Shown piece after piece: positions 631 through 12,266 of a stretch of DNA of 42,976 nucleotides. The position numbers and the translations under genes are program-made. Source of the stretch: Nitrospirota bacterium (GTDB lineage: Bacteria; Nitrospirota; Thermodesulfovibrionia; Thermodesulfovibrionales; Dissulfurispiraceae); contig JAJZPZ010000012.1 of NCBI GenBank assembly GCA_021847795.1, positions 1 through 42,976 of the forward strand, read 5' to 3'. The number at the start of each line of letters is the position of its first letter. Position 1 is the first letter of the stretch. Below the pieces are notes generated by a model that ran no database searches, had not been told where the DNA came from, and saw only the letters and a program-made list of their open reading frames with translations.

Positions 631-1821
631 ATGACGCACGGATTAACTCTATCGGAAAAGTTCATTGCTAGTCTCTGCCAGCGAGCGTTTCTAAAATTGT
701 GGACACATCCAAATCCAAAAGGAAAAAAGGATAAGGAGCTTTGCGACTGTTTGGTAGTGTGCGGTCCCCATATCGTTATCATCTCTGTGAAAGAGAACGA
801 ATATAAAGACACAGGCGACAAAACCGGCTGGGAACGATGGCAAAAGGCCGCAATTGAGAAGTCTGTATCACAAATATGGGGTGCTGAACGTTGGCTAGAA
901 ACTGTTAATGAAATTGTTCGACATGACGGAAGAAAAGTTACTCTGCCAAATAGGGATGAACGGCAATATCACCGTGTGTCAGTCTCTCTTGGCGGTAAAG
1001 GCCACGTCCCGCTAAAATGGGGCGATTTCGGAAATGGATTTGTACATGTCTGTGATGAATATAGCGTTGGAGTTGTTTTTGGCGCTCTTGATACAATTAC
1101 GGATTTTATTGAGTATTTGACTGCCACAGAGTCTCTAATCAAATCTGGTGTACAACTCTCATTCGCCGGTGGAGGTATCGAGGATCTGTTAGCACTCTAC
1201 CTCTCACGCGGCCATTCATTTGACATTAGGCCAGACTCGCCCCATTTTGACAGGCTCATTTTGCTTGATGACATGTGGAAAGGCTTTTCTGAATCTGAAG
1301 AGTATGCCGCAATCAAAAAAGACCTCGACAATTCATATATTTGGGACAGGTTAATTGAGTTTTATGTGACTGATTTGCTTACAGACGGAATGTTCGATAT
1401 GCACAGCAAGGAAGTAACTAAAAACGAACTTGCCCTAGTAACAATGGCTCTACAGCCAAGAAGCGCCCGCGCAGTACTAGCAGAATCATTTATAGAATTT
1501 CTTGGAAACCCAGAATTAAAAGTTGCTTCTCGGGCTGTTAAAGGTTATGCGGACACAGCTTTTGTTTTCTTTATCGGTAAAAGTTCGGATAGGGAATACA
1601 GAATGAAGGAGCTTTCTCTGAGATGTTTAGTCATTCGCGGCAGGATTCCAGGTGTCATAACGGTGGTGGGTATCGCTACTGATCGGCCAGGAACATCAGA
1701 GATAGGTTACTCATCTGACATCGTATACCTCCACCTTCCCGATTGGACTACAGAAGACGAAGATAGAGTCATCGGGATTCAGAGCGACTTGGGGTACTTT
1801 AAGAATGTTCAGTGGACATAG
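631..1821 (+). CDS. Nuclease-like hypothetical protein (possible PD-(D/E)xK fold) of an accessory operon
   Basis: I do not recognise a named family. The N-terminal part has a pattern typical of restriction-endonuclease-like folds: an acidic-strand segment (KELCDCLVV, about residues 34-42) followed by a hydrophobic strand ending in SVKEN (about residues 51-55). This could supply the D...(D/E)xK active site, but that is an inference from motif shape. The rest (about 300 residues) shows no signal peptide, membrane segment or repeat. I chose ATG 631 (396 aa) because a GGAAGGA ribosome site sits 6-7 bases upstream; a TTG at 610 would add 7 residues. The gene lies directly upstream of an AAA/TOPRIM ATPase on the same strand, a context seen in phage-defence and restriction loci. 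Lower GC than the housekeeping genes fits horizontal acquisition. Confidence 0.7.
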   Translation: MTHGLTLSEKFIASLCQRAFLKLWTHPNPKGKKDKELCDCLVVCGPHIVIISVKENEYKDTGDKTGWERWQKAAIEKSVSQIWGAERWLETVNEIVRHDGRKVTLPNRDERQYHRVSVSLGGKGHVPLKWGDFGNGFVHVCDEYSVGVVFGALDTITDFIEYLTATESLIKSGVQLSFAGGGIEDLLALYLSRGHSFDIRPDSPHFDRLILLDDMWKGFSESEEYAAIKKDLDNSYIWDRLIEFYVTDLLTDGMFDMHSKEVTKNELALVTMALQPRSARAVLAESFIEFLGNPELKVASRAVKGYADTAFVFFIGKSSDREYRMKELSLRCLVIRGRIPGVITVVGIATDRPGTSEIGYSSDIVYLHLPDWTTEDEDRVIGIQSDLGYFKNVQWT

Positions 1822-1952
1822 ATACAGAAAGGACAAAAGGTCCAACAAATCGCTGGGCCTGGCCGGATAAAGTCGCGGCAGGTCAGCTCTCAGGCTTTGA
1901 GCGGCAGAGGAGGATGAATGAAAATCAAGGAAATTCGACTTACAAACTTTAA
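1812..1952 (+). CDS. Possible 46-aa protein bridging the nuclease-like and ATPase genes
   Basis: A GTG-initiated frame starts 10 bases before the end of the nuclease-like gene and runs 35 bases past the ATPase start codon. It therefore spans the whole 96-base gap between them. The central part (RWAWPDKVAAGQLSGFERQ) looks protein-like, with Trp residues and a charged helix instead of random sequence. Overlap at both ends fits translational coupling in a three-gene operon. No family is recognised, and no clear ribosome site precedes the GTG, so it could also be a chance frame. Confidence 0.35.
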   Translation: MDIDTERTKGPTNRWAWPDKVAAGQLSGFERQRRMNENQGNSTYKL

Positions 1953-2361
1953 AAGATTTACTGACGCAACCATCACTGATATCCCCGAGACAACTCGGCT
2001 GGTGATCCTTGTTGGCCCTAATGGGTGTGGCAAATCTTCTCTGATTGATGCAGCGCACATGTGGTATCGGCACCATTGGGCGCATAGCGGTAATTGGGAC
2101 GATACCTATTACAGAAAACAGATGCCTGGCATCGCGGCAACATGGCAGAACGTCGTTAATGTTATCTTCCATGATCCTCAGCCCACGACAGATGAGCAGC
2201 GCAGGAAGGCAATCTATGCCCGCTCAGCATATCGTAATGACCCGGAATTCCAGTTCGACAGCCTCTCTCGCGTTTCTCCGGCTGTTCAAGAGTTTCGAAT
2301 TAATCGTCTGATTGATAATGATCAAGCTGTAAGCCTCAATTATCGACGTCTTGTTTCATAG
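1918..2361 (+). CDS. AAA ATPase (SMC/OLD type), N-terminal half, ended by an in-frame TAG
   Basis: This is the N-terminal ATP-binding half of an SMC/OLD-type ATPase. It begins with the usual IRLTNFKRF strand, and a Walker A motif GPNGCGKSS lies at residues 33-41. Start ATG 1918 has an excellent ribosome site (AGAGGAGG) just upstream. The frame stops at TAG 2359-2361, but translation in exactly the same frame continues as GFEEVYERATPDL into the C-terminal half that holds the signature and Walker B motifs. The break is thus one nonsense codon, not a frameshift. A CAG or TGG to TAG change would explain it. As read, this 147-aa product lacks Walker B and would be inactive alone. Confidence 0.75.
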   Translation: MKIKEIRLTNFKRFTDATITDIPETTRLVILVGPNGCGKSSLIDAAHMWYRHHWAHSGNWDDTYYRKQMPGIAATWQNVVNVIFHDPQPTTDEQRRKAIYARSAYRNDPEFQFDSLSRVSPAVQEFRINRLIDNDQAVSLNYRRLVS

Positions 2362-2397
2362 GGATTCGAAGAGGTCTACGAGCGAGCTACACCTGAT

Positions 2398-3516
2398 TTG
2401 ACGATCGGCGAGTTTCGTGAGCGCTCAATTGGACAGATACGCGACGCCACCCAGCGACTGTTTCCTGGCCTTGTCCTCAATAGTCTCGGGAATCCACTTT
2501 CTGCGGGCACATTTCGATTTGACAAGGGTGACAGTAAAGCGTTCCTTTATAAGAACCTTTCGGGCGGCGAAAAGGCAGCCTTTGACCTTCTGCTCGATAT
2601 GTTGATAAAGAAAAATGAGTTCGACGATACAGTGTTTTTCATTGATGAGCCGGAGGCCCATATGTCACCGGGGCTGCAAAGCGTGCTACTGGATGAGCTA
2701 TTTTTGGCTGTGCCGGCAAACTCTCAGCTATGGTTAGCAACACACTCAATAGGGATGATGAGGCGTGCACGTGACCTAGCACAAGCCCATCTTGGCTCTG
2801 TTGTATTTCTAGATTTCGACGGTGTGAACTTTGATCTGCCTACAACACTACGCCCAATTGAACCAGGTCGGCCGTTTTGGAAGCGGGCAATGCAAGTAGC
2901 GCTTGATGATCTCGCAGGATATGTCACTCCTGAACGTGTTGTGCTATGTGAAGGAGCTCGCCTCGACGGTGGGTCTGATTTTGATGCCGAGTGCTACAAC
3001 AGCATATTTGAAACTGACTATCCCCAAGTCGTCTTTCTGGGTGCAGGCAACTCTAACGACATCCAGAACGACCCTCGCGGGGTCACGGGGCTATTAGCCG
3101 CACTAGCACCTGGAGTACGTGTAACAAGAGTTATTGATCGTGATGATCGGACGGATGAAGAAATTCAACAGTTGAGGGCTCGAAATGTACGTGTACTTTC
3201 TCGCAGGACAATAGAATCTTACCTTCTCGATGATTCTATACTTCAAGGCATATGCGAAGGCTTTGGTCAACCTGAGCTTGCACCTGAATTACTTGCGGCA
3301 AAGCAAGAGGCATTAAGAAATAGCATTGCGAATGGCGGCCCAGCAGATGATCTTAAACGACCTGCGGGAGATATCTACAATGCAGCAAAACGTCTTTTCC
3401 CGAATCGAAAGCTTGGTAGCGATAGAAGAGCTTTTATGAAGGGTATTTGTGCCCCTTTAGTTCGTCAAGGAGCGGCGATTTATGCGGAACTACAGCGGGA
3501 CATTTTTGGTGAGTGA
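2398..3516 (+). CDS. AAA ATPase C-terminal half with TOPRIM/DUF4435-like domain
   Basis: This is the C-terminal continuation of the ATPase that begins at 1918, in the same frame. It opens at 2362, and the first possible start is TTG 2398. It contains the ABC signature LSGGE, a Walker B FFIDEPEAH, a D-loop VLLDELF and an ATHS switch histidine. After these comes a TOPRIM-like region with VVLCEG and VIDRDDR acidic motifs, then RRTIESYLLDD, which resembles DUF4435 proteins. ATPase plus TOPRIM nuclease is the layout of OLD/GajA proteins and of the PARIS AriA/AriB pair, so a defence role is plausible but inferred. Its stop lies 2 bases before an IS remnant at 3519. Without the N-terminal Walker A half it could not bind ATP; stop-codon readthrough or a sequencing error would restore a roughly 532-residue protein. 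Confidence 0.75.
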   Translation: MTIGEFRERSIGQIRDATQRLFPGLVLNSLGNPLSAGTFRFDKGDSKAFLYKNLSGGEKAAFDLLLDMLIKKNEFDDTVFFIDEPEAHMSPGLQSVLLDELFLAVPANSQLWLATHSIGMMRRARDLAQAHLGSVVFLDFDGVNFDLPTTLRPIEPGRPFWKRAMQVALDDLAGYVTPERVVLCEGARLDGGSDFDAECYNSIFETDYPQVVFLGAGNSNDIQNDPRGVTGLLAALAPGVRVTRVIDRDDRTDEEIQQLRARNVRVLSRRTIESYLLDDSILQGICEGFGQPELAPELLAAKQEALRNSIANGGPADDLKRPAGDIYNAAKRLFPNRKLGSDRRAFMKGICAPLVRQGAAIYAELQRDIFGE

Positions 3517-3518
3517 CT

Positions 3519-3579
3519 CGTAAGCTTCCCCATTAGGTTGACAGTTGTAAAGTAGAGGTTCCGGCATTTTGCTCCATAT
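3519..3579 (-). repeat. Right-end remnant of an older, inverted copy of the IS
   Basis: These 61 bases are the exact reverse complement of 4723-4783, the right end of the intact IS next door, including the last codons of its transposase. They begin with the terminal CGTAAGCTTCCC and end in ATAT, where the intact copy has inserted. With 4788-4798 they make up what is left of the earlier element. Perfect identity means both copies are recent. Confidence 0.9.
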
Positions 3580-3654
3580 CGTAAGCTTCCCTAAAAAGTA
3601 GACAGCAGACAAGTAGAGCTTTCTGGCAAAATAAACGACCAGGAGGTTCTAGGG

Positions 3655-3921
3655 ATGAAGAAGGGAAGATTCACCGAAACACAGATCGTGACGATCCTCA
3701 AAGAAGCAGACAGCGGGATGTCTGTGAAGGATATCTGCCGCAAGTACGAGATCAGCGATGCGACCTACTACAACTGGAAATCGAAGTATGGCGGCATGGA
3801 AGCATCCGATCTGAAGAAGATGAAAGAGCTTGAGCAGGAACTGAGCCAGATGAAACGCATGTATGCGGATATGGCTCTTGAGAACAGGGCATTAAAGGAT
3901 CTGCTCGGAAAAAAATCGTAA
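3655..3921 (+). CDS. IS3-family transposase OrfA
   Basis: This 88-aa protein is the DNA-binding subunit. An N-terminal helix-turn-helix (TETQIVTILKEADSG to ATYYNWKSKYGG, residues 6-42) is followed by a leucine-zipper-like coiled coil (residues 44-82). Start ATG 3655 is preceded by an AGGAGG-like ribosome site. The sequence is of the IS407/IS2-like HTH_Tnp_1 type. Its C-terminus overlaps the A-rich slippery site that lets some ribosomes shift into orfB and make the OrfAB transposase. Confidence 0.92.
   Translation: MKKGRFTETQIVTILKEADSGMSVKDICRKYEISDATYYNWKSKYGGMEASDLKKMKELEQELSQMKRMYADMALENRALKDLLGKKS
3909..3915 (+). promoter_or_regulatory. -1 programmed frameshift site (A AAA AAA) of the IS
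   Basis: Seven adenines sit in the orfA frame as GGA AAA AAA, the standard A_AAA_AAA slippery heptamer, five codons before the orfA stop. Slipping back one base enters the orfB frame, which is open from here (KKIVRPSDKREAVRYLVVEH), giving the OrfAB fusion transposase usual in IS3 elements. Confidence 0.8.
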
Positions 3922-3944
3922 GGCCGTCTGACAAACGCGAGGCA

Positions 3945-4769
3945 GTGCGGTATTTGGTTGTTGAGCATCGTCTGTCAGTGCAGAGGAGCTGCAAGTGCAT
4001 CGGGTTATCCCGAGCGGCCTATTACAACAGCATGAAAGCAGAGCTTAACCGGGATGCCGAGGTTATCGCGGCAATCAATGCAGTATTGGAGAGGCATCCC
4101 CGGTGGGGCTTCTGGAAGTGCTATAAAGCGCTCAGGAAGAAGAAGTATCACTGGAATCATAAGCGAGTGTATAGGGTGTACTGTCAGATGAGGCTGAATC
4201 AGAAGCGTCGGGCAAAGAGGAAGCTGCCCAAGAGACTACGGCAGCCCCTAATGGTGCCACAGAGGCCGAACCACGTATGGTCGGCTGATTTCGTAAGCGA
4301 TGCATTGTATGCGGGGAACCGCTTCAGGACCTTTAATGTGATCGACGACTTTAACCGGGAGGTCGTGGCTATTGAGATTGATACCTCTCTAACGGCCAAG
4401 AGGCTGATTAGGGTGTTTGAGCGACTGCAGCTGACCCGTGGGCTGCCTGATGTGCTTCGGGTCGATAACGGCCCTGAGTTTTTGAGCAGTGAGTTTGTGA
4501 CATGGGCTGAATCAGTGGGGATGCTGATTCAGTATATTCAGCCCGGGGAACCGAATCAGAATGCGTATATTGAGAGGTTCAATCGGACGTACCGGGAAGA
4601 GGTGCTTAACCTGTACCTGTTTGAGAGCCTAGCGGAGGTGCGGGAAACGACGTACTGGTGGATGATCGACTATAACGAGGATAGGCCCCATGATGCTCTG
4701 GGCGATTTGACACCGGCAGAATATATGGAGCAAAATGCCGGAACCTCTACTTTACAACTGTCAACCTAA
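3945..4769 (+). CDS. IS3-family transposase OrfB (DDE catalytic domain)
   Basis: This is the catalytic part of the transposase. It has an HTH_21-like N-terminal region (RWGFWKCYKALRKKKYHWNH) and an RNase H-like integrase core with the three acidic residues in WSADFVSD, LRVDNGPEF and NAYIERFNRTYREE. The GTG 3945 start is formal: the frame is open from the slippery site at 3909, and the functional product is OrfAB made by -1 frameshifting. The stop codon lies inside the right terminal repeat, 14 bases from the element end. There are no internal stops. Confidence 0.92.
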   Translation: MRYLVVEHRLSVQRSCKCIGLSRAAYYNSMKAELNRDAEVIAAINAVLERHPRWGFWKCYKALRKKKYHWNHKRVYRVYCQMRLNQKRRAKRKLPKRLRQPLMVPQRPNHVWSADFVSDALYAGNRFRTFNVIDDFNREVVAIEIDTSLTAKRLIRVFERLQLTRGLPDVLRVDNGPEFLSSEFVTWAESVGMLIQYIQPGEPNQNAYIERFNRTYREEVLNLYLFESLAEVRETTYWWMIDYNEDRPHDALGDLTPAEYMEQNAGTSTLQLST

Positions 4770-4783
4770 TGGGGAAGCTTACG

Positions 4784-4798
4784 ATATATTCTGCCGGT
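4784..4798 (-). repeat. Second part of the older inverted IS copy
   Basis: These 15 bases equal the reverse complement of 4712-4726 inside orfB. They are the expected continuation of the older copy at the other side of the ATAT target duplication. Identity stops at 4798, where the REP-associated element begins, so the older IS was truncated at that boundary. Confidence 0.85.
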
Positions 4799-5575: not shown

Positions 5576-5884
5576 TCAGCATGATGTAGCACATTCCGAA
5601 GAAAAAGGGCGTATTGCGGCAACTTCCTTACTCTTCTGTCTCGCTACTTCCTCAAGATCATAGAGCGTCTGCAGGTTCATCCAGAATTCAGGGCCGGTGC
5701 CGAGAAATTTTCCGATCTTGAGTGCGGTTTCAGCGGTGATGCCCCGCTCTCCCCTGATGATCTGGCCTATCCGGGTCTGGGAAAGCCCTGTTTCCTTTGC
5801 AATGCGATAAACAGTGATTCCCATGGGGTCGAGAAACTCTTCTTTTAATACTTCTCCCGGATGGATATTTTTTAAATGTCTCAT
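5576..5884 (-). CDS. higA: HigA-type antitoxin, XRE-family HTH
   Basis: This 102-aa protein has the HigA signature: HPGEVLKEEFLDPMGI, an HTH (YRIAKETGLSQTRIGQIIRGERGI) and GTGPEFWMNLQTLYDLEEV. It binds and neutralises the HigB toxin encoded 11 bases upstream and represses the shared promoter. The C-terminal tail SSECATSC is unusual and close to the end of the neighbouring transposase element, so the last residues may have been altered by that insertion. Confidence 0.9.
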   Translation of the reverse strand: MRHLKNIHPGEVLKEEFLDPMGITVYRIAKETGLSQTRIGQIIRGERGITAETALKIGKFLGTGPEFWMNLQTLYDLEEVARQKSKEVAAIRPFSSECATSC

Positions 5885-5895
5885 TATGTCACCTC

Positions 5896-6183
5896 TTAAT
5901 GGTAATCGGTTATCTCTACATCATGGGCAGCGCTGCCCTGCCATCGAAAGCAGATCCGCCACTGGTCATTAATCCTGATGCTCCACTGTCCCTCCCTATC
6001 TGCATGCAGCCGTTCAAGGCAGTTCTTTGGAGGGATTCTCAGTACATCCAGGGTCATAGCGGCAGCAATCATCCTTAGTTTGCGCCGCGCCAGGTTATGT
6101 AGGTTTGTAGGCAGCTTAATCTTTTTTGAAAAGCTCCCCTGCCACACGAGCTGTGTTTCATCATCCTTAAACGATGCTATCAC
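5896..6183 (-). CDS. higB: HigB-type mRNA interferase toxin (RelE/ParE superfamily)
   Basis: This 95-aa toxin of the RelE-like fold carries the HigB hallmarks RKLRMIAAAMTLDVLRIPP, LERLHADREGQWSIRINDQWRICFRW and a C-terminal VEITDYH. HigB enzymes cut mRNA on the ribosome. The gene starts at GTG 6183, precedes higA as is usual for higBA, and sits behind a promoter with a perfect TTGACA. The length is normal and the gene appears intact. Confidence 0.9.
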   Translation of the reverse strand: MIASFKDDETQLVWQGSFSKKIKLPTNLHNLARRKLRMIAAAMTLDVLRIPPKNCLERLHADREGQWSIRINDQWRICFRWQGSAAHDVEITDYH

Positions 6184-7279: not shown

Positions 7280-9697
<2,418 letters not shown>

Positions 9698-9772
9698 TTA
9701 AAAATTGCAATGAGCAGCGGGCGGGTGGAGAAAAGTTTCTCCTCTCTCCTCACCGGTCCCCCATCACAGTAA

Positions 9773-10876
9773 TTACAGCCTCATCGGCATTACAACGTAT
9801 TTATAATCTTCCCTGCCGTCTTCCATAATCAGGGTGGGATTCAGCGGTTCGTTCATTTTCAGGACTATCATTGCAGAGTCCATAACATTCAGCGCATCGA
9901 GGATGTACTTCGCGTTGAAGGCCAGGGTGATCGGCTCTCCCGTATAATCCACTGCGAATTCATCTTTTGCCTCGCCGAGATCGGGATTTGAAGCCGAGAT
10001 GCCCATGCTCTTTGCATCGATGTCGACCTTCACGGCGCTGCTTCTTTCCTTGCTCATGATGGAGACCCTGCGCAGGGACTTCATCAGCAGGACCTTGTCA
10101 ATGTGCATGGTCTTGGTGCTGGCAGAGGGAATCACCTGTTCGTAGTTCGGGTAGGTGCCCTCGATCAGTCTCGTCAGGAACTGTATGGCATCAACCTCAA
10201 AGAGGATATGGTTTTTCCCGATGGAAACCTTCACCGGCTTTGCCTCTCCGTCAAGGAAGCGCCGCAGTTCCGACAGGGACTTCCTCGAGAATATCACCCG
10301 TTTCTCTTCTTTGGGGTTGAATCCCACGGTCTTCTGGAAAAGGGCCAGCCTGTGCCCGTCCGTCCCTACGACGGTCAGCGTGCCGTCGGGCTTGATATTA
10401 AAAAGCAGGCCGTTCAGGACATAGCGCGTGTCCGATTCTCCGGCTGCATAAAGGGTCTTGTCTATCATTTCCAGGAGCACAAGGGAATCGATCTCCAGGT
10501 TTTCGGCATCGCCTGTCATGGGAGGCCAGACAGGGTACTCTTCGTGGGAAAGACAGGCCAGCCTGAAATGGCTCTTACCGCATTTGACCTTCAGCCACTT
10601 TCCATCTACTGATTCGAGGGTTATCTCCCCATCCATTTCCCTTACGATTTCAAAAAGTTTCTTTGCAGGGATGCATATCCTGCCCTCATCTATGACATTG
10701 AGCGTAAGGGGTTCCTTGAAAGCTGTTTCAAGATCAGTAGCGGTGATGTACTGCCCCTCTTTTTCCGCTACGAGAAGAAAATGGCTCAGTATCGGCATGG
10801 TATTCTTCTTTTCGACAATGTTCTGGATATCGGAAAGTTTCTTTTGCAATTCATCTTTTTCTACGGTTACCTTCAT
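9773..10876 (-). CDS. dnaN: DNA polymerase III beta sliding clamp
   Basis: This 367-aa subunit forms a dimeric ring that holds replicative polymerase on DNA. The three-domain clamp fold is recognisable from NTMPILSHFLLVAEKEG, TDLETAFK, AGESDTRYVLNGLLF, VGTDGHRLALF and the C-terminal EDGREDYKYVVMPMRL. The start ATG has a GGGAGG ribosome site. It is 55 bases downstream of dnaA and 87 upstream of gyrB, on the same strand, in the usual origin-linked order. Confidence 0.98.
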   Translation of the reverse strand: MKVTVEKDELQKKLSDIQNIVEKKNTMPILSHFLLVAEKEGQYITATDLETAFKEPLTLNVIDEGRICIPAKKLFEIVREMDGEITLESVDGKWLKVKCGKSHFRLACLSHEEYPVWPPMTGDAENLEIDSLVLLEMIDKTLYAAGESDTRYVLNGLLFNIKPDGTLTVVGTDGHRLALFQKTVGFNPKEEKRVIFSRKSLSELRRFLDGEAKPVKVSIGKNHILFEVDAIQFLTRLIEGTYPNYEQVIPSASTKTMHIDKVLLMKSLRRVSIMSKERSSAVKVDIDAKSMGISASNPDLGEAKDEFAVDYTGEPITLAFNAKYILDALNVMDSAMIVLKMNEPLNPTLIMEDGREDYKYVVMPMRL

Positions 10877-10931
10877 TATTCCTCCCTTTTCCTGCCCTGA
10901 AGATTTATTTCAATCGAATCCTTAGCTGCTT

Positions 10932-12266
10932 TTAAATGCCCGTTATGCGCCTGATGATGTTCTCTATGCTCTTATTGAGGTTCTCATCTTTGCCGCGTTT
11001 TTCCTCTATCTGCCTGCAGGCGTAAATCACGGTTGCGTGGTCCTTTCCGCCGAAGTACTTCCCTATCTCGCTCAGGGAAAGCGACGTGTGCTGCTTCGAT
11101 ATATACATCGCGATCTGCCGGGCGTTCGCTATTTCCTTAGTCCTCTTCTTTGCCTTCATGTCCTGGATCTTTACCCCGAAATATTCGCAGGCAACCTTTT
11201 GTATCGTGTCCACGGTCACCGGCTTGTCGTCTTCCGCGATCAGGTCCTTCAGCACCCTCTTTGCCATCAGGGTGTCTATGGGCATTCCTGTCAGTGAGGC
11301 ATGGGCCCCGATCTTTATCAGGCAGCCTTCGAGTTCCCGGATGTTCGATTTCACTTTTGTTGCGAGGAACAGCACGACATCATCGGGTATGGCCATCTTT
11401 TCAAGGGCGGCCTTTTTATAGATGATCGCCATTTTCGTTTCTATTTCAGGGGCCTGTATATCGGCAATGAGTCCCATACTGAACCTCGACCTGAGCCTGT
11501 CGGTGATGTCCGAGATCTCCATGGGCGCCCTGTCGCTGGATATCACGATCTGCTTCTGTTTCTCGTAAAGGGAGTTGAAGGTATGGAAAAACTCCTCCTG
11601 GGTCGTGGTCTTGCCGGCTATGAACTGGATGTCATCGATGAGCAGGACATCGACATTCCTGTATTTCTCTTTGAAATCGCTCATCTTCTCATGCCTGAGC
11701 GCAGAAATGACCTCATTGGTAAACTGTTCTGCGGATACATAATAGACCGTAACCCCGGGGTTCTTGTCTACAATGTTATTGCCTACCGCGTTTATCAGGT
11801 GCGTTTTCCCGAGCCCGACCCCTCCATAGATAAAGAGCGGATTATAGGAAAACCCCGGATTTTCGCCGACCCTTTTTGCAGCAGCATGGGCAAACTGGTT
11901 GGACGGACCCACAACAAAGGTATCGAAGGTGTATTTGGGGTTCAGATAAATACCCCTGTTCGCGAGTTTGGTCTTTCTGTTCTCCAGCTTCGTGTCCATC
12001 TTCCGAAGGGCCGCATCTTCTTTTTCTGCAGTCTTGTATTTCACCGTGACCGGATAGCCGAGCACCCCTTCCATTGCTTCGGTAATGACCGTGGGGTAGT
12101 AGTCTTCTATCCACTCCCTGAAAAACCTGTTGGGGATTTCAACAACAGCGCTTTTATCTTTTATTTGAAGGAGCTTCATAGGCTTAAACCACAGCTCGAA
12201 CAAACTCCCGCCGACTTTTTGCGCTATAGTCGTAAGCCCTTTATTCCATATTTCTTCAGTGTTCAT
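10932..12266 (-). CDS. dnaA: Chromosomal replication initiator DnaA
   Basis: This 444-aa AAA+ initiator binds DnaA boxes and melts oriC. Visible are the N-terminal domain I (IWNKGLTTIAQKVGGSLFELWF), a Walker A GGVGLGKTHLINAVG, a Walker B LLIDDIQFIAGK, a sensor region (TDRLRSRFSMGL) and the domain IV DNA-binding signature KDHATVIYACRQI. The start ATG lacks a strong ribosome site. The upstream region carries DnaA-box-like sites, one within the likely promoter spacer, so DnaA autoregulation is expected. Confidence 0.98.
   Translation of the reverse strand: MNTEEIWNKGLTTIAQKVGGSLFELWFKPMKLLQIKDKSAVVEIPNRFFREWIEDYYPTVITEAMEGVLGYPVTVKYKTAEKEDAALRKMDTKLENRKTKLANRGIYLNPKYTFDTFVVGPSNQFAHAAAKRVGENPGFSYNPLFIYGGVGLGKTHLINAVGNNIVDKNPGVTVYYVSAEQFTNEVISALRHEKMSDFKEKYRNVDVLLIDDIQFIAGKTTTQEEFFHTFNSLYEKQKQIVISSDRAPMEISDITDRLRSRFSMGLIADIQAPEIETKMAIIYKKAALEKMAIPDDVVLFLATKVKSNIRELEGCLIKIGAHASLTGMPIDTLMAKRVLKDLIAEDDKPVTVDTIQKVACEYFGVKIQDMKAKKRTKEIANARQIAMYISKQHTSLSLSEIGKYFGGKDHATVIYACRQIEEKRGKDENLNKSIENIIRRITGI

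Follow-up and report, generated by a model that had tools for sequence, protein, structure and literature searches.

The window, by which we mean the whole 42,976-nt stretch of Nitrospirota DNA analysed here, carries a nuclease-like gene followed on the same strand by an ATPase-TOPRIM gene (Table 1). The initial annotation spoke of three proteins; two genes are present, the second split in two by a stop codon. Translation of the frame from 1918 to 3516 gave 533 codons, with the TAG as the sole internal stop and a terminal TGA. The earlier description of this frame as continuous save for one TAG was confirmed, and 44 relatives align with it over its whole length. The translation also bore out the order of motifs reported before, with Walker A preceding the TAG and the LSGGE, Walker B and TOPRIM motifs following it in the same frame. 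The chance of finding 384 stop-free codons after the TAG is about 2e-9, given the local composition.

Table 1. Features of the nuclease and ATPase-TOPRIM locus and of the element that adjoins it.
Feature	Position	Strand	Remark
396-aa PD-(D/E)xK-type nuclease-like protein	631..1821	+	Intact, TAG end; stand-alone family
Gap between the two genes, 96 nt	1822..1917	+	AGGAGG 4 nt before the ATPase start; from sequence
ATPase-TOPRIM gene, N-terminal part, Walker A lobe only	1918..2361	+	147 codons plus TAG
Walker A GPNGCGKS, residues 33-40	2014..2037	+	Core invariant across 45 aligned sequences
In-frame TAG, codon 148	2359..2361	+	Within predicted helix 137-154
ATPase-TOPRIM frame, remainder	2362..3516	+	384 codons, TGA end
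ABC signature LSGGE, residues 214-218	2557..2571	+	
Walker B VFFIDEPEAH, residues 239-248 (IDEPEAH 242-248)	2632..2661	+	
TOPRIM/DUF4435-like core: CEG 344-346 (E345), DRD 407-409 (D407, D409), IESYL 432-436 (E433)	2947..3225	+	Invariant columns; hhalign to DUF4435 proteins
IS3-like element, 62-nt perfect inverted repeats	3518..4784	+	Starts 2 nt after the ATPase stop codon

The third-position GC was 0.40-0.46 in the nuclease and ATPase genes, compared with mostly 0.55-0.7 in the surrounding core genes. Given this low third-position GC and the transposons alongside, the locus looks like a horizontally acquired, decaying patch near the origin, next to dnaA-dnaN-gyrB. No other full copy of the IS3-like element was found in the source genome. 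Further downstream, a HigB-like toxin and an HTH antitoxin are encoded as a pair at 5576-6183, after a Y1 (IS200-like) transposase gene. The genes gyrB, dnaN and dnaA lie on the minus strand at 7280-12266, about 4 kb beyond the ATPase, and a replication origin is likely near.

Pfam, NCBIfam and PADLOC all gave no match to the 396-aa protein. The initial annotation had called it nuclease-like, and its fold supports this: a PD-(D/E)xK core is present in the structure predicted by AF2 (pLDDT 76, pTM 0.80), and the top structural matches of the model were PD-(D/E)xK enzymes (N.BspD6I, Z 9.4; R.BspD6I2, 8.2; Can2, 7.1; McrC, 6.6). Foldseek alone returned weak matches only, with no E below 0.001. 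Among the relatives, E36 and D39 are invariant, and a later K is found in most and R in a few. The protein shares its N-terminal fold and an E-x2-D...(S/D)xK-like motif with enzymes of the BspD6I/McrC/Can2 type; unlike these, it has a C-terminal region of its own, which bears a SEC-C motif in some relatives. The relatives were found in 141 plasmid records, 14 phage-like contigs and a few chromosomes of the same phylum. Judged from the predicted fold, a PD-(D/E)xK nuclease is thus the probable identity of the 396-aa protein; its family is a different one from that of the ATPase and is common on plasmids and phage-like contigs.

The initial annotation had also united the two genes in a defence operon of unusual partner composition. 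Their arrangement is compatible with a single two-gene defence system: they lie on the same strand, 96 nt apart, and a scan of 1822-1917 found no plus-strand terminator-like site; moreover, OLD-type ATPases paired with PD-(D/E)xK enzymes have been reported elsewhere (PMC12839542). However, no relative of the 396-aa protein occurred near any of the 51 ATPase loci, in flanks of about 8 kb if the contig was long enough, and the compact ATPase-TOPRIM family was absent from all 22 nuclease loci. The nearest relatives of the nuclease (L029, 56% identical; G191, 66% identical and with an IS inside) have no ATPase-TOPRIM gene, and an ATPase relative on a Zymomonas plasmid (44%) has no nuclease gene. 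A search run without a positive control found no nuclease in six genomes of ATPase relatives. The 22 nuclease loci had no shared neighbour beyond near-identical elements, and only one of them (L108) has an adjoining AAA_21 ATPase, which is a different protein. Since homologues of the 396-aa protein turned out not to be linked to such ATPases at these 51 and 22 loci, the operon of unusual composition is unsupported. A two-gene system is largely refuted and we regard it as very improbable; juxtaposition in an acquired patch fits better than an operon.

Two side observations concern the nuclease family. At L108 (4195-8983), the nuclease-family gene has a HerA-like ATPase gene close upstream and the AAA_21 ATPase gene close downstream; this sets it apart from the other nuclease loci, and the three genes may form a system. 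A further genome from the phylum of the source genome carries a 66%-identical nuclease-family gene split by an IS3-like insertion (L036:3971-6474).

Read through its stop, the window ATPase exceeded the Pfam cut-offs for AAA_15 (58.5 bits) and AAA_21 (56.8 bits), and AAA_15, AAA_21 and SMC_N matched all 45 members of the family. Pfam DUF4435 matched six of the 45, and no DUF4435 match was found elsewhere in the source genome. When the C-terminal domain was compared with DUF4435 proteins by hhalign, the probability was 94% and the E value 1e-7, on only five comparison sequences; the CEG and IESYL glutamates were in register with those proteins. The window ATPase keeps the TOPRIM catalytic E, DxD and E. 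The top PADLOC model was fused AriAB, which was matched by 45 of 45 members. In the published rules, single-gene fusions of ATPase and DUF4435 are counted as PARIS, and a fused PARIS is scored at 80 bits for AAA_15+DUF4435 or 20 bits for AAA_21+DUF4435 (PMC9122126). The PADLOC AriAB models gave 91.5 and 37.5 bits on the window ATPase, and these models may differ from those of the published rule. On the AriAB model, two clearly fused PARIS-like proteins from the same phylum scored 256 and 422 bits against 91.5 bits for the window protein, indicating that the compact ATPase-TOPRIM family lies further away. The predicted fold of the ATPase (pLDDT 88) matched retron Eco8, GajA, PtuA, AriA and Rad50/SMC heads, a list filled by the ATPase domain; no solved structure matching the TOPRIM part by sequence was found. 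The earlier view of an SMC/OLD-type ATPase of defence type is supported by Pfam, PADLOC and fold, and the hhalign comparison makes a DUF4435-type C-terminal TOPRIM domain probable. The ATPase is a compact (~530 aa), divergent fused ATPase-TOPRIM protein, AriAB/PARIS-like and of a known kind of defence protein.

Comparison with known systems placed the family more closely. As in fused AriAB of PARIS, an OLD/ABC ATPase is followed, in one polypeptide, by what is probably a DUF4435-type TOPRIM domain. In contrast to AriAB, the window family is shorter (~530 aa; the AriAB model has 694 positions, part of which is covered by the best stretch, 305-530), Pfam detects no DUF4435 in the window copy, and the frame of that copy is interrupted at codon 148. 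Class 1 OLD proteins (P2 Old; TsOLD, 6P74, which is in the PDB match list) are likewise encoded by a single gene with the ATPase before the TOPRIM domain, but the C-terminal domain of the window family resembles DUF4435. In addition, class 1 OLD genes stand alone according to their published description (PMC10568477), whereas many relatives of the window ATPase lie in restriction-modification (RM) operons. The ATPase-TOPRIM anatomy is also shared with GajA of Gabija, the second-ranked fold match; unlike in Gabija, no UvrD/PcrA-like GajB lies beside the window ATPase, whose neighbours are the nuclease-like gene and the IS3 element.

In a scan with one genome per species, relatives of the ATPase were found at 49 loci in at least 10 phyla, including Pseudomonadota, Bacteroidota, Actinomycetota, Chloroflexota and Poribacteria. 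In a sample of one phylum, the family was present in two of 397 other genomes. The complete relatives are 37-48% identical over their full length. The 45-sequence alignment has 45 invariant residues, among them the nucleotide-binding motifs, C344-E345-G346, D407, D409 and E433. The window ATPase keeps 85 of the 90 columns with at least 90% conservation, 24 of 26 before the TAG and 61 of 64 after it. Because both sides are equally conserved, the change must be either recent or an artefact. The residue at codon 148 had been suggested for comparison with relatives, with CAG or TGG in mind. The relatives are full-length and Gln is the most frequent residue (17 of 44), but the position is otherwise variable, and none of the 44 has a stop there. 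Given this variability, the aligned family probably does not depend critically on this site for its function, and the truncation would be the source of damage.

The initial annotation left open whether the gene was recently inactivated, read through or affected by a base-call error. We weighed these options by the usage of TAG, the tRNA genes and the state of other relatives. First, at least six of the window's ORFs end normally in TAG, the adjoining nuclease gene among them. In addition, the search for a suppressor tRNA found no CUA anticodon among 37 tRNAs, a set that is incomplete (for example, tRNA-Ile and tRNA-Asp are missing). Finally, several relatives are broken as well: frameshifts occur in L080, L081 and L084, and the frame of L156 is open but for two TAA codons. 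The apparent break in L082 was rejected as real damage, as it is a run of N and hence an assembly gap. A selenocysteine tRNA gene was also noted in the source genome (G000:C6:640-820, L147).

Amber readthrough or suppression would yield a low level of full-length protein and so regulate a toxic effector, and a single TAG with conserved coding sequence downstream is what it would look like. It is the least probable of the readings, with hardly any likelihood left to it, because neighbouring genes end in TAG, no CUA-anticodon tRNA is among the 37 found, and none of the aligned relatives has a stop at codon 148. Scarcely more probable is a natural two-piece protein, consisting of the 147-aa Walker A lobe and a piece of about 372 aa with the signature, Walker B and TOPRIM motifs. 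Separate N and C lobes likewise make up SMC and Rad50 heads, the break lies between the two ATPase lobes, where SMC/OLD proteins have inserts, and L080 and L081 are broken near codon 126, close to 148. However, translation beyond the TAG could first begin at a TTG (2398), which no ribosome-binding site precedes at a suitable distance, and L084 (about codon 235) and L156 are broken elsewhere. No slippery site was evident at the near-126 breaks of L080 and L081, and the clustering of breaks at one possibly programmed site was not significant (three among about six, by a rough estimate).

An artefact of base calling, consensus or strain mixing, with the gene intact in the living organism, deserves more weight, although we consider it unlikely. 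On either side of the TAG the frame is flawless, and all family hallmarks are kept; furthermore, the assembly is fragmented (273 contigs) and has 2.94% contamination. Against this, a consensus error of a single base should rarely happen to place a stop in one particular gene, and several ATPase relatives have real-looking breaks. Since TAG ends other genes of the window and no CUA anticodon was found among the 37 tRNAs, recent nonsense inactivation is the simplest reading of the TAG, and the ATPase gene is probably a recent pseudogene. Taking the two genes together, we think it likely that a nonsense change at codon 148 has lately inactivated the ATPase-TOPRIM gene, which lies beside a functionally untied nuclease gene in an acquired patch.

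All that the window copy would yield is a fragment of 147 aa that includes Walker A; as this fragment would be without the signature motif, Walker B and the nuclease, no activity is expected from it. For the intact relatives, the domain anatomy and the catalytic residues can be read from the alignment, and PARIS serves as the model for trigger, substrate and growth arrest. The TOPRIM target in PARIS is host tRNA. By analogy, the ATPase of the intact relatives would sense a phage trigger, and an ATP-dependent rearrangement, the likely mechanism, would release the TOPRIM domain. The freed TOPRIM domain would then cut nucleic acid and, as in PARIS, may arrest growth.

The relatives of the ATPase often lie in RM operons. 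ATPase-TOPRIM genes lie inside type I restriction operons at L034, L041, L042, L073 and L085, and at the first three of these the ATPase start overlaps the HsdS end by 4 nt. The ATPase overlaps a type III Mod gene by 4 nt at L063 and L083, and at L061 (5883-9557) type III Mod and the ATPase-TOPRIM protein are fused in one 1225-aa frame. RM homologues were found in the flanks of 15 of 51 ATPase loci compared with one of 22 nuclease loci, which are different collections and give a rough control only. Some ATPase relatives look solitary. BREX and RM-like systems are known to include TOPRIM-linked OLD-ABC ATPases (PMC12839542), and the HsdS and Mod overlaps and the Mod fusion likewise place relatives of the window ATPase in RM operons. 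In contrast to those systems, the window copy has no RM genes alongside. No homology to an HsdS or Mod remnant was found in the 96-nt gap.

The ATPase of PARIS detects an anti-restriction protein, and the coupling of the compact family to HsdS and Mod fits this logic. A tentative possibility is that the compact ATPase-TOPRIM protein is a guard that rides on the HsdS or Mod subunit and is triggered once that subunit is inhibited by a phage; if so, the copy in the window may be a detached, dead member.

By itself, the window locus is ordinary and of limited weight, one more defence gene in decay. It also gives a caution that neighbouring nuclease and ATPase genes need not make a system. More is to be gained from the wider family than from the window copy: the coupling of its members to HsdS and Mod, including one fusion, gives a testable form to the idea that PARIS-like proteins may watch over restriction enzymes, and this coupling is the part that deserves experiment.
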